A model generated the notes under the pieces. The model was not told the DNA's origin and ran no database searches. It saw only the letters and a program-made list of their open reading frames with translations. From the NCBI RefSeq assembly GCF_036784765.1, contig NZ_CP136651.1, positions 744,001 through 808,000 on the forward strand: 64,000 nucleotides of DNA. The letters are read 5' to 3'. Source of the stretch: Novosphingobium sp. ZN18A2. GTDB lineage: Bacteria; Pseudomonadota; Alphaproteobacteria; Sphingomonadales; Sphingomonadaceae. The position numbers and the translations under genes are program-made. Shown piece by piece: positions 9,804 through 13,896 of the stretch; the first letter of the stretch is position 1; each line of letters opens with the position of its first letter.

Positions 9804-9879
9804 GCCGCTTTAGCTCAGTTGGTAGAGCATCGCATTCGTAATGCGAGGGTCACTGGTTCGAGTCCAGTAAGCGGCACCA
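9804..9879 (+). tRNA. tRNA-Thr (anticodon CGU), CCA encoded
   Basis: A complete cloverleaf can be drawn: acceptor GCCGCTT (9804-9810) pairs with AAGCGGC (9869-9875), the anticodon stem is TCGCA/TGCGA with loop TTCGTAA, and the T-loop is TTCGAGT. The anticodon is CGT, decoding ACG (Thr). Discriminator A9876 is followed by an encoded CCA. The 270 bp between hppD and this gene show nothing clear. The 256 bp between it and the next gene hold no recognisable ORF. A fusion gene with an AT-rich patch begins just downstream, so this tRNA could be an integration site, though no direct repeat of its 3' end was found by eye. Confidence 0.97.
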
Positions 9880-10135
9880 CCTTCATTTGCGCACTTTGCC
9901 TCGGCTCCAATCGAGCCGGCGCCCATTGAGCCGCCTCTGGCCGGTTCGCACGCGCTGTGCCGGCGGGGCGCGACGTACCCATACATGGTGACGCTGTATC
10001 CCGGTGCCTGCCCGAAAGGGGTATCGCCTTCTTATCGCTTGCCCCGCTTTGACAAGACGCAACAATGTAACCGTCCCATTCTTCGACGGAAATAAGCAAA
10101 AAGCGATATATGGAATCGCGACCGAGACTTGATTG

Positions 10136-12808
10136 ATGTTATTTTTCGACAAGGCCAGCCAATTGGCGGACAGGGCTCCGCCGATCCCGGCAGGAGATGA
10201 GCCGGGGGCAAGCGGCGGCCAGCATCGGTTCTGGCACGATCTGGAACGGTTCGGAGACAACGTTGCGCTCAAGGGCGAAGCGGGGGAGAGCGTCAGCTAT
10301 GTCGATCTTGCCCGGATGGCCGACAACGCGGGCTTCGCTTGCGGTGCGCGCCGGCTTGTCGTCATGGAAATCGACAACAGCATACCGGCCGTCGCAGCCT
10401 ACCTGGGGGCGTTGAGGGCCGGGCACGCGATCATTCTGACCGCGCCGGGCAATATCCGCGACCTGGACCTGCTCGTCGAAACGTATCGGCCCGACCTGAT
10501 GGTGTCGCACAGCGATGGGCTGATAGAGGCGGATGCCGGTCCGAATACCGGGCTTCATCCCGATCTTGCCGTGATGCTGTCAACCTCGGGGTCGACCGGC
10601 AGCCCCAAGCTGGTCCGGCTTTCAGATGCCAATCTTGACGCCAACGCCCGCTCGATTGCCGCGTATCTGGGGATTTGCCCGCGGGACTGCGCTATTACCA
10701 CGCTGCCGCCCTATTACTCCTACGGCTTGTCGGTGCTGCATTCCCGCCTTGCGTCGGGCGCCAGCATAGCGCTCACCAACCGTTCGGTCACCGATCCGGA
10801 ATTCCTCCGCATCGCCGGCCGGTGCGAAGCGACCACGCTGGCAGGCGTGCCCTATACCTATGAACTGCTTCTTGCGTCGGGTCTTCTGGACGATCTGCCG
10901 CCGTCGATGCGCCTGTTGACGCAAGCCGGCGGACGGCTTGCCCCGGAACTGGTCGAACGGGTCCGCGTTGCCGCCGAAGCGCGGAACCTGCGGTTTTTCG
11001 TCATGTACGGACAGACCGAGGCGACCGCGCGCATGGCCTACGTCCCGCCGGAGCAGCTCGCCCGGTATCCCGATTGCATAGGCCAGCCGATCCCGGGCGG
11101 CTCTTTCGAACTGGTCGATCCGCAAACCGGGGCGCCCGCGGACAAGGCGGGCGAACTGGTTTATCGCGGGCCGAATGTGATGATGGGCTATGCCTCGGAC
11201 CGGGGCGATCTGGCCCGGGGCAGGGACATCGACCGGCTCGTGACCGGCGACCTTGCCGAGATGGTCCGACCGGGAATGTTCCGCATCACCGGGCGCAAAA
11301 GGCGGTTCATCAAGCTCTTCGGAAGGCGCATCGCGCTCGACCAGGCGGAAGCGGAGGCCGCCCGGATCGGCTGGAGCACGGTTGCCACAGGCGATGACGA
11401 AAGGCTGGTCCTTGCCGTGGAAGGCGACCGCGATCCCGCGCCGCTCGCCGCCTATTTCGCGGACCATTACAAGCTCCCGCCAAAGTGTGTCGTCGCGCTT
11501 CGCCTGCCGGTCATTCCCCGCCTCGCGAGCGGGAAGCCGGACTATCGGTCCATCCTGGCCGGCGTATCCGGCGATGGCCCGGCTTCGCCTGACGGCGATC
11601 CGATGGCGACCTATGCCGCCGTCCTGGCACAAGCGGCCCGGACCGACGCGGTTGGCGACGATGCGACGTTCCGCGAGTTTGGCGGGGACTCGCTGATGTA
11701 TGTCGAGGCGATCATGGCGCTCGACGAGGCGTTCGGAACCGCGCCGGTGGGCTGGGAATCCATGCCGCTGGGCACGTTACGGAAAATGTCCGCGGCCACC
11801 GTGCCCGATCCTGCCGCAGCCCAGCCGCGTATCCAGGACTTCGGCTTCATCCCCGCGATGCGGACAGTGGCCATTCTGCTTGTTCTTGCACCCCATGCAA
11901 AGTCTGCATTGACGAGCGACGACGGAATATTGAATTACCTGCATTTCCGTCACGTAAATGCGATTTTCGTATTTATCGCCGGGTTCTTGTTCCAGAAATT
12001 GATATCGAGTTTTTCATATAAGAATTACATAAATAACAAGATAAAATATATCGCGCTGCCTTATGTATTGATATCGATTCCGGCGATCCTTGTTTATCTT
12101 TTCGAACTAAAGGATCGCGCCAAGCTGGATGCGCCTGGTTTCATACACGGCGATTTCATGCTGACCGTTTACATGATCCTTACAGGAACCCATCTTGGGC
12201 CGCTTTGGTTCATGCCCATGATATTCCTGATTTATTTGTCGTCTCCGATACTCAAGGCGATCGACGACAGGCCGCAGGCATATTGGGCTGTTTTCCTGTT
12301 GTTCCTGCTGGCCATGTACGTCGGGCGTCCGCCATTGGACAACAACCCGTTCCAGGCATTCGTCTTTTACCTGCCCGCCTATGTACTCGGGATGGCGGTG
12401 TCGCATTATCATCGACGCTGGCTGCCCGTACTGGCAGGCAGTTGGCCCCTGTTTCTGGTACCGGCCGTCGTCCTGTCTGTCCTGCCGCCCGATCTGCAGC
12501 CGGTCGATCCGCTGATGATGGTGGCAAAGGTCTGCCTTGGCCTGGGTATTCTTGGCCTTCTGGCGCGCTATTCGGCCAGGATACCCGGAAATTTCCGGTT
12601 TATCGGCGACCTGAGCTTCGGCATTTATCTCGTCCACGGATATTTCGCGTCCGCGATTTCGTTAACGGCGGCCCGGTTCGGCTGGGATCTGGAAGGCTTG
12701 CCGGCGTTCCTTTTCGTCTATGCCATCATCCTGTCGCTTTCGGTCGCGACGGTCCTGCTGGTCAAGCGCATCTTCGCAACGCAAAGCCGGCTGATCATCG
12801 GGGCATAG
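10136..12808 (+). CDS. Adenylation domain - acyl carrier domain - acyltransferase 3 (OafA-like) membrane fusion protein
   Basis: An 890-residue three-part protein. Residues ~20-475 form an ANL adenylation domain: P-loop STSGSTGSPK at 149-158, YGQTEA at 291-296, GD at 371-372 and the catalytic Lys467 in LASGKPDY. Residues ~485-560 form a carrier domain with FGGDSLMY, where Ser519 would take phosphopantetheine. From ~570 to the end lies a multi-pass acyltransferase-3 domain starting PAMRTVAILLVLAPHA, with the family's Arg576 and His587. The logic is activate an acid, load it on the carrier, then transfer it to a membrane-facing or exported acceptor. The substrate is unknown. The ATG at 10136 is used (a TTG sits just before it). 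Bases ~11,990-12,080 are clearly AT-rich compared with the surroundings. Confidence 0.88.
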   Translation: MLFFDKASQLADRAPPIPAGDEPGASGGQHRFWHDLERFGDNVALKGEAGESVSYVDLARMADNAGFACGARRLVVMEIDNSIPAVAAYLGALRAGHAIILTAPGNIRDLDLLVETYRPDLMVSHSDGLIEADAGPNTGLHPDLAVMLSTSGSTGSPKLVRLSDANLDANARSIAAYLGICPRDCAITTLPPYYSYGLSVLHSRLASGASIALTNRSVTDPEFLRIAGRCEATTLAGVPYTYELLLASGLLDDLPPSMRLLTQAGGRLAPELVERVRVAAEARNLRFFVMYGQTEATARMAYVPPEQLARYPDCIGQPIPGGSFELVDPQTGAPADKAGELVYRGPNVMMGYASDRGDLARGRDIDRLVTGDLAEMVRPGMFRITGRKRRFIKLFGRRIALDQAEAEAARIGWSTVATGDDERLVLAVEGDRDPAPLAAYFADHYKLPPKCVVALRLPVIPRLASGKPDYRSILAGVSGDGPASPDGDPMATYAAVLAQAARTDAVGDDATFREFGGDSLMYVEAIMALDEAFGTAPVGWESMPLGTLRKMSAATVPDPAAAQPRIQDFGFIPAMRTVAILLVLAPHAKSALTSDDGILNYLHFRHVNAIFVFIAGFLFQKLISSFSYKNYINNKIKYIALPYVLISIPAILVYLFELKDRAKLDAPGFIHGDFMLTVYMILTGTHLGPLWFMPMIFLIYLSSPILKAIDDRPQAYWAVFLLFLLAMYVGRPPLDNNPFQAFVFYLPAYVLGMAVSHYHRRWLPVLAGSWPLFLVPAVVLSVLPPDLQPVDPLMMVAKVCLGLGILGLLARYSARIPGNFRFIGDLSFGIYLVHGYFASAISLTAARFGWDLEGLPAFLFVYAIILSLSVATVLLVKRIFATQSRLIIGA

Positions 12809-12915: not shown

Positions 12916-13896
12916 TTACTCTGCGGCCAACAGTCCGTCGGTCTGCTGCAGCACGGCCTGCTGGCGCGCCGGGGGCAGCCATGCGAATTCTCCGGGCAGG
13001 CCAAGGCGCTCTGCCGCCTGCCACGCGGGAGAGGCGCGGTCCTTGTGCCGGTCCGCCGCCTTGCCCGCCGCCTTCAGCGCCATGCGGTCGAGCAACGTCA
13101 GGTTCCATTCCGGCCCCAGTTCCAGACGTTCGCGCACCACGGGAGGCAGGATGGAGACCGCGCCGCGTGCAAGCGCGCGATGCAGGAAGCGCGGCACGCT
13201 GGGCGCTGCCTTGCCCGATGCGATGATGTTCAGGAATTCCAGGTTGATGGGGTGCGGTTCGAACCGGGGAAGAAGGTCTTCCATCATCTCCATGAATTCG
13301 GCCTCCGAAGAGGCGGAGCGCGTAACCCCGTAAAGCTCGCCCACCACGCGGCCTTCGGCGAAGAACCGGCTCTGGTCAGCGGACGAAAGCGGGCGCACGA
13401 AAGTGTGATAGGCCTTTACGAAGCCATACCCGGCCGTCGCATGGACCCAGTCGAGCAGTTCGGGTTCAAGCGCGCGGTAGGGTGTGCCGTCGGGCGTTTC
13501 ACCCGATACTTTCGCGTGCATGCGTGTGACGCCCGCGATCACCTTGCGCGCCATCGATGCCGGGCCATAGACGCCGACCATCGCCGCGATGCCGGTGCGG
13601 CGCGATCGACCGATCGGATCGACCGGATAGACCGAATGATCCCACACCCCGCTGCGGATGCGGGCATCGGCGAATTCCAGCAGGACCGCCGCCACACCGC
13701 CCACGCCCATCGCGATCTGGTTGCGGAACACGCGCCATTGCACCGAATCGGGTGCAAGCAGCGCCGGTTCGCCGGGCGGGTTGCGATAATCGACGGTCCA
13801 TTCGCGCGCGGCCGCCTTCTTCGCGGCGGCGGCCAGGGTTGCATTCTCGTCCTGTGCCTGTCCGGCGGTGCGGGGTTCGGGATCGTGCAGGGCCAT
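12916..13896 (-). CDS. Oxygenase MpaB family protein (DUF2236)
   Basis: A 326-residue protein of the DUF2236/MpaB family, which includes haem-dependent latex-clearing proteins and fungal MpaB oxygenases. Recognisable segments are the N-terminal SVQWRVFRNQ, the GVYGP motif, the central HATAGYGFVKAYHTFVRPLS with candidate haem-ligand histidines, and GRVVGELYGV. No signal peptide is evident. It is transcribed away from the acyl-CoA dehydrogenase at 14030 and shares a ~130-bp control region with three palindromes. Co-regulation suggests a joint role in oxidising a lipid-like or terpenoid substrate, which is inference. Confidence 0.85.
   Translation of the reverse strand: MALHDPEPRTAGQAQDENATLAAAAKKAAAREWTVDYRNPPGEPALLAPDSVQWRVFRNQIAMGVGGVAAVLLEFADARIRSGVWDHSVYPVDPIGRSRRTGIAAMVGVYGPASMARKVIAGVTRMHAKVSGETPDGTPYRALEPELLDWVHATAGYGFVKAYHTFVRPLSSADQSRFFAEGRVVGELYGVTRSASSEAEFMEMMEDLLPRFEPHPINLEFLNIIASGKAAPSVPRFLHRALARGAVSILPPVVRERLELGPEWNLTLLDRMALKAAGKAADRHKDRASPAWQAAERLGLPGEFAWLPPARQQAVLQQTDGLLAAE

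Follow-up and report, generated by a model that had tools for sequence, protein, structure and literature searches.

An adenylation-carrier-acyltransferase fusion in Novosphingobium sp. ZN18A2 as a predicted self-loading, Dlt-like membrane O-acyltransferase

From where does a membrane acyltransferase draw its acyl donor when it shares one polypeptide with an adenylation domain and a carrier domain? This question is raised by a gene of Novosphingobium sp. ZN18A2 located at 10136..12808 (plus strand, as are all features below unless noted) of a 64,000-nucleotide stretch (assembly GCF_036784765.1, contig NZ_CP136651.1, positions 744,001 to 808,000), hereafter the window. The gene encodes 890 amino acids, and the answer that we favor and consider reasonably probable is that its product is a self-loading, Dlt-like transmembrane O-acyltransferase, fed by its own acyl-carrier and not by acyl-CoA. 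In this scheme, the cytoplasmic adenylation (A) domain would adenylate a small carboxylic acid without an amino group, for which a short hydroxy or oxo acid is the likeliest candidate, and the fused carrier would then take over the acyl group on the phosphopantetheine arm of its Ser519. The loaded arm would offer its thioester to the pore of the fused acyltransferase-3 (AT3) domain, through which the acyl group would be moved across the membrane to an acceptor outside the cytoplasm; a sugar in an exopolysaccharide or in another envelope glycan is the likeliest such acceptor. The phosphopantetheinylation of Ser519, the identity of the acid, the hand-over from carrier to AT3, and the acceptor are elements that we infer.

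The frame is unbroken from the ATG at 10136 (a TTG at 10133 is a possible alternative start) to the stop at 12808, and three Pfam families match above their curated cut-offs: AMP-binding (residues 141-352, 2.5e-40), PP-binding (498-535, 1.1e-5), and Acyl_transf_3 (PF01757; 572-872, 1.5e-25). The open reading frame and these matches bear out the single uninterrupted A-carrier-AT3 frame described in the initial annotation, and its placements of the P-loop (149-158), Lys467, and Ser519 in GGDSL all agree with the translation. The A domain covers approximately residues 30-480 (10223..11575; from Pfam, an AlphaFold2 (AF2) model, and A-domain matches in the Protein Data Bank (PDB)), and has the features of ANL adenylation domains: the AMP-binding fold with PDB structural matches, the P-loop STSGSTGSPK (10580..10609; read from the sequence and column counts), the A8 Arg (R387), and the adenylation lysine of motif A10, Lys467 (11534..11536). 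The peptidyl/acyl carrier protein (PCP/ACP) domain follows at approximately residues 488-560 (11597..11815; Pfam and model helices), with Ser519 (11690..11692) as the presumed phosphopantetheine site, and the AT3 domain occupies residues 572-872 (11849..12751; Pfam and an AT3-only model).

A scan of public species genomes gave at least 597 matched stretches, 563 of which encode a relative (tblastn, 1e-3); the loci studied here are the best 80 of at least 563. A frame of 786-947 amino acids is present in 72 of the 80, including L012 and L062, which proved to be wrong-frame. Our alignment (A1) has 54 rows, of which 52 are usable once L012 and L062 are dropped, and 50 of these have an AT3 part; identity means and C-terminal clusters use all 54 rows, L012 and L062 included. 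Outside the alignment are L018, L042, and L055 (cut by contig ends), L071, L080, and L081 (short), near-identical rows, and the wrong-frame L078, which is nevertheless in the tree (a quick tree of 76 A-carrier parts, in which the window protein is not firmly placed). Of the 54 aligned members, 52 have a Pfam match (1e-3) to AMP-binding, 42 to PP-binding, and 40 to AT3. Lys467, Arg299, R387, and the carrier Ser519 are invariant (52/52 usable rows), and R576, H587, W691, and Y831 occur in 50/50 AT3 members (H834 in 49/50). Because the catalytic residues are invariant across the aligned members, the three-domain fusion is not a product of chance. The survey of homologues and neighborhoods, put forward in the initial annotation as a check, found all three parts kept across many alphaproteobacterial, gammaproteobacterial, and actinobacterial relatives.

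Phosphopantetheine bound to a carrier has no 3'-phosphate. The CoA 3'-phosphate is the contact assigned, in the accessible text of PMC9833829, to the RxxR motif at the cytoplasmic face of transmembrane helix 3 (TMH3) of AT3 proteins. At this place ordinary AT3s have RxxR(hydrophobic)xP and the window protein has KIKYIALP (residues 635-642, 12038..12061, by alignment), with Lys at the first basic position and Tyr at the second. As controls, we used the best Pfam-scoring AT3s of genomes in the window's class (30 fetched, with L172 dropped for want of a usable frame). In an alignment of whole AT3s, both motif columns are basic in 0/51 fused AT3s and in 29/29 controls, and the text pattern [RK]xx[RK](hydrophobic)xP is found in 0/51 and 22/29, respectively; Fisher values on these counts take related rows as independent and are not to be read as probabilities. 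A looser pattern, [RK]xx[RK]xxP, matches 22 of the 51 fused AT3s, by eye elsewhere than the true motif place, which is why the count was made on the two columns of the full AT3 alignment. The RxxR of acyl-CoA-dependent AT3s is accordingly absent from the TMH3 face of the window protein and the other fused AT3s, while it is present in 3/3 standalone AT3 genes directly behind fusions; the separate AT3 partners in Moritella and Catenovulum lack it. This incomplete motif favors the proposal of the initial annotation that acyl-CoA is not the donor, with the remaining basic residues and biased controls (see below) as caveats.

The AT3 part has the features of the TmAT superfamily, a proposed grouping of AT3 and HGSNAT/GWT1-type enzymes (PMC12423673, in its available portion): the PF01757 match, an HGSNAT-like fold in the model, and R-X10-H in AT3 TMH1 (R576 to H587, 11861..11896, by alignment; motif defined in PMC9833829). 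The AT3-only AlphaFold model has a pLDDT of 76 and a pTM of 0.75. With this model, Foldseek found nothing at E below 0.001; a second structure aligner placed it on human HGSNAT (Z 17.3, 276 aligned residues, root-mean-square deviation 4.5) and GWT1 (Z 14.2), and the next row was MurJ (Z 5.4). According to this aligner's notes, mostly helical models may reach Z ~14 through a common arrangement, and therefore the GWT1 match weighs less than that to HGSNAT. The fold search with the full-length model returned 50 rows, all of them A-domain-type entries.

The A-domain pocket is informative with regard to the donor. Residues G197, A264, M290, R299, and K467 are kept in 52/52 rows, with the same pocket in actinobacterial and other members, and the five are identical in 35 more loci, of which 21 are standalone and 14 are longer, including an A-LuxE fusion. 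In alpha- and beta-amino-acid A domains an Asp (GrsA D235, VinN D230) binds the amine, and the alpha-hydroxy-acid A domains discussed in the accessible sections of the same source have Ala or Gly at this position (PMC11253843). Aligned with VinN, the window protein has Ser195 there (10718..10720), and the family has Cys (27/52) or Ser (25/52); a LgrA profile alignment instead puts Gly197 at the D235 equivalent, such that the exact equivalent depends on the alignment and is Asp by neither in any of the 52 rows. A pocket this close to invariant, with no Asp to bind an amine, makes a single donor without an amino group probable, namely a hydroxy or oxo acid. An amino acid, one of the two kinds of donor that the initial annotation had offered, is unlikely and was rejected as the leading idea. 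The pocket Arg299 (11030..11032), aligned to VinN R331, is invariant and the best single PDB match of the A domain is malonyl-CoA synthetase, which keeps an acid with a second carboxylate among the candidates.

Sister A genes that stand alone and share these pocket residues occur in flagellin-glycosylation-type islands (L119-L132, L138-L145, L146, L147, and L148), including in the window's own bacterial family. Genes around the loci were called with a simple codon-score script and no gene finder. By Pfam, the sister A gene of L140 is surrounded by an ACP, a FabG-like reductase, and LuxE, and that of L080 stands beside LuxE and LuxC; single loci have Maf (L120), NeuB (L144), or transketolase (L143), and the remainder resemble L140-type islands in gene sizes and order only. 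By analogy, the company of an ACP, a FabG-like reductase, and LuxE suggests, short of proof, that the donor may be an oxo or hydroxy acid of short chain, and the FabG-like reductase and ACP beside one standalone sister A gene are the sole hint that suggests 3-hydroxybutyrate or acetoacetate. At L156 (7838-10471, genome G327), the same A family is joined to an acyl-protein synthetase in an 877-amino acid A-LuxE fusion.

When members are compared, the A-carrier core gives the impression of a loading head to which different membrane engines can be fitted. Mean identity among members is far higher in the A core (48%) than in the AT3 part (30%; 54 rows), and 46 of the 54 C-terminal parts form one cluster. 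The C-terminal part of the window protein has no BLAST match at E 1e-3 among the other 53 (19% identity to them), and its kin are the same-genus fusion in genome G022 (48%) and separate AT3-like genes in Moritella (31%, 56 bases from an A-carrier gene) and Catenovulum (32%, 1.1 kb from an A-carrier gene), where the A-carrier assignment includes a Pfam run for Catenovulum only. A third A-carrier gene, in L149, has an 8-base overlap with a separate AT3 gene. The relatives in Photobacterium and Massilia continue after the A-carrier core with a single hydrophobic transmembrane (TM) segment and then an SGNH/GDSL domain, and each has an MBOAT gene as its next neighbor; the Photobacterium carrier lies below the Pfam reporting limit, with the Ser kept. 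Loci L029 (7998-12071) and L045 (7860-12012) show this A-carrier-TM-SGNH protein and then the MBOAT gene as a compact, Dlt-like pair, and L150 (7492-10923, genome G474) has a 555-amino acid A-carrier gene without AT3, then a MatE-family gene. A wider proposal, the case for which we regard as evenly poised, is that the fused AT3s gave up acyl-CoA, and that the A-carrier part is an interchangeable head with one dedicated hydroxy or oxo donor, several engines (more than one AT3 lineage, and SGNH plus MBOAT), and recruitment to iron uptake in Actinobacteria.

Judging from the neighborhoods of relatives, a candidate role is that of a surface polysaccharide O-acylase. In G022, the contig with the fusion's C-terminal part continues with a second AT3 gene, and Gfo/Idh, aldo-keto reductase, GT2, and Wzc-type genes are convergent with both. 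In Rhizorhapis, the second gene upstream of the fusion encodes a bacterial sugar transferase, and downstream are a further AT3 gene and a GT2-GtrA gene; Sphingobium has a second AT3 gene after the fusion. The surface-polymer acceptor named in the initial annotation is thus backed by exopolysaccharide-type neighbors in relatives (G022 and Rhizorhapis), but not beside the window copy, where none was recognized. In three sphingomonads a second, ordinary AT3 with RxxR lies directly behind the fusion (L006, 10592-11677; L047, 10620-11735; L154, 6968-8017).

Several observations weigh against carrier-fed acylation to an envelope glycan. The window AT3 retains Lys in the first motif column, the second column is still Arg in 15/51 fused AT3s, any RxxR within 95 residues past TMH1 occurs in 31/51 fused AT3s and 26/29 controls, the separate AT3 of L118 has RFAR and then Pro, and controls picked by Pfam score are biased towards the motif. 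The Arg of R-X10-H, which is also in contact with the CoA phosphate in a published simulation (PMC9833829, in the part available), is kept in the fused AT3s, and some rhizobial members (L036, L067) have an Arg one residue ahead of the first motif position. The full-length AF2 model (pTM 0.61) is weak outside the A domain, Pfam recognizes no glycan gene adjoining the window copy, and the genome has a single match to the phosphopantetheinyl transferase family PF01648, such that the predicted loading of Ser519 would depend on that enzyme. Among 36 other genomes of the genus, a close copy occurs only in G022, as two pieces on two contigs, and G026 has a distant partial match (38% over 137-500); the window fusion is therefore rare in its genus. 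Lastly, carrier-fed acylation leaves unexplained why 25 of 42 actinobacterial loci are near an iron importer. Part of this would suit an account in which the A-carrier makes its acyl group for another purpose and the AT3 part works as a normal O-acetyltransferase dependent on acyl-CoA, with the fusion a matter of co-localization only: R-X10-H and the other AT3 residues are fully kept, some members of the family still have Arg or Lys close to where the motif is missing, and the best PDB match of the A domain is a CoA ligase. We consider this account rather unlikely in view of the two CoA-phosphate basic residues (together in none of the fused AT3s and all of the controls), the invariant carrier Ser, and the pairing of the same core with SGNH and MBOAT in two relatives.

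The importer genes raise another alternative, namely that the enzyme, at least in Actinobacteria, serves to produce or modify a small molecule that binds iron, or a chelator at the surface, for uptake by the adjacent FbpABC-type importer, as a one-enzyme chelator system. Substrate-binding protein (SBP) and permease genes of this type are near the fusion in 25 of the 42 actinobacterial loci (42 counted from record titles within the 80, with the importer sought in the fetched flanks), in several orders, upstream or downstream, and co-directional or divergent, with L079 the weakest case; examples are L010 (4436-8070), L012, L013, L031, L049, L065, L069, L104, and L106. In 11 loci the fusion and the gene for the importer ATPase share 4 bases, plasmid annotations in Rhodococcus fascians and Mycolicibacterium chubuense place the importer beside the fusion and name the transporter as iron, and 13/17 SBPs keep H, E, Y, and Y at four positions that we take to be the FbpA iron ligands (the other four, from Lentzea, differ at the first two). 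Yet no such importer adjoins the window gene or, in the records read, the annotated Sinorhizobium, Rhizobium, and Leisingera genes, and the 38 non-actinobacterial loci of the 80 gave one weak match (L060); the A pocket is moreover the same in both groups and the sister A genes are in glycan islands, and we hold an iron function for the enzyme to be unlikely. The genomic setting of the window copy bears on a further alternative, that of a dead or decaying, horizontally acquired fusion without function in this genome. A tRNA-Thr gene (CGT; 9804-9879) ends 256 bases before the ATG, an HPPD gene lies upstream on the opposite strand, and an MpaB/Lcp-like oxygenase gene lies downstream (12916-13896, minus strand); no operon partner was recognized by Pfam among these neighbors. 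The G+C content is 0.53 in the AT3 part, 0.656 in the A part, and 0.662 in the window, and falls to 0.41 in a 250-base block inside the AT3 part (12001-12250). The low AT3 value is consistent with a chimeric or acquired gene and, together with patchy distribution and the lack of a recognized operon partner, would fit decay. The 890-codon open frame, the intact catalytic residues, and two same-family relatives (53% identity) that keep an 859-codon frame make decay very unlikely in our view. A genomic-island reading was rejected: the last 14 to 29 bases of the tRNA-Thr have no second occurrence on the window plus strand, and therefore no attachment-site repeat was found. In a search for an empty site, the MpaB-like gene was found at 1e-60 only in G003 among 20 other relatives.

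By whole-genome search, the genome (3.3 Mb, one contig) contains the fusion once at full length; six further matches there are other A-type domains (25-37% identity, partial A-domain coverage). According to record titles, the best 80 loci belong mainly to Rhizobiales and other Alphaproteobacteria, Gammaproteobacteria, and Actinobacteria. At 1e-60, 98 plasmid records match, and the name in all 20 listed is 'AMP-binding protein'. At E 1e-90, an A-carrier profile matches 22/398 sampled phylum genomes and 13/296 order genomes, counts that include standalone A genes and, in both samples, the window genome. The fusion family is widespread and has no name of its own. Among the titles and abstract starts listed in literature searches, none describes the A-carrier-AT3 fusion, with subscription journals thinly covered, such that absence from print is not established. 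The suggestion of an undescribed system in the initial annotation holds to the extent that no published description was found, but the system is not singular. How acyl groups pass the membrane in AT3 proteins is presented as an open question in the available parts of PMC9833829 and PMC9558356. If our proposal is correct, a tethered loaded arm combined with a lost CoA-phosphate motif would offer a defined single-chain system for trapping and visualizing donor entry, would link Dlt-type and AT3-type envelope modification, and would be a pointer to a further acyl group on many bacterial surfaces, including those of rhizobia. The importer association raises an iron question in environmental Actinobacteria.

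Among known systems, AT3 proteins of the OafA/OafB/OatA type share R-X10-H and the TmAT fold with the window protein, which differs in its incomplete CoA-phosphate motif and N-terminal A-carrier part. AT3 proteins are modeled as acyl-CoA users, and the architectures listed in the accessible portions of these sources are AT3-only, AT3-SGNH, AT3-racemase, and eukaryotic fusions (PMC9558356, PMC9833829). The group II flagellin island of Aeromonas contains orf3 ('AMP-dependent synthetase'), an ACP, a 3-oxoacyl-ACP reductase, LuxE, and LuxC, with a proposed role (PMC7874193, as far as available), and CaiC is given as the Enterobacteriaceae counterpart of orf3, its role likewise only proposed (PMC4875605, in part). 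The standalone sister A genes (A2 profile), which keep the pocket residues, are likened to this island by their gene set; in contrast to the window protein, the island has a standalone A domain, a separate ACP, and LuxE/LuxC in place of AT3. Poly-amino-acid synthetases (epsilon-poly-lysine synthetase and PosA) also combine an A domain, a carrier, and a membrane part in one chain, but differ in using an amino acid, in having six TM helices and three beta-helix segments where the window protein has AT3, and in making a homopolymer (PMC10522769, in the sections accessible).

The best NCBIfam relative of the A domain is the exosortase-A-associated acyl-CoA ligase TIGR03098 (2.4e-40), with a score of 138.5 of 592 bits, far under the cut-off, and no match to the carrier and AT3 parts. 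TIGR03098 is associated with exopolysaccharide. AlmEFG carries out an envelope modification, the glycylation of lipid A, by means of a ligase, a carrier, and an acyltransferase, and is distinguished from the window protein by separate genes, a glycine donor, and an unrelated acyltransferase. Dlt is composed of the ligase DltA, the carrier DltC, the MBOAT protein DltB, and DltD. The likeness to Dlt lies in the predicted order of events, in which an A domain activates an acid, a carrier bears it, and a membrane acyltransferase delivers it to a surface polymer; the idea of a one-gene analogue of Dlt, with its activation-carrier-transfer logic, is strengthened by the two relatives (Photobacterium and Massilia) in which a core-TM-SGNH protein adjoins an MBOAT gene. 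DltA (3e7w) is only a distant sequence match (E 4.3e-10), and the window protein departs from Dlt in being one polypeptide, in having AT3 for MBOAT, and in an A pocket without the amine-binding Asp, where the Dlt donor is D-Ala. By analogy, therefore, the window protein would work like Dlt and is not a member of it.

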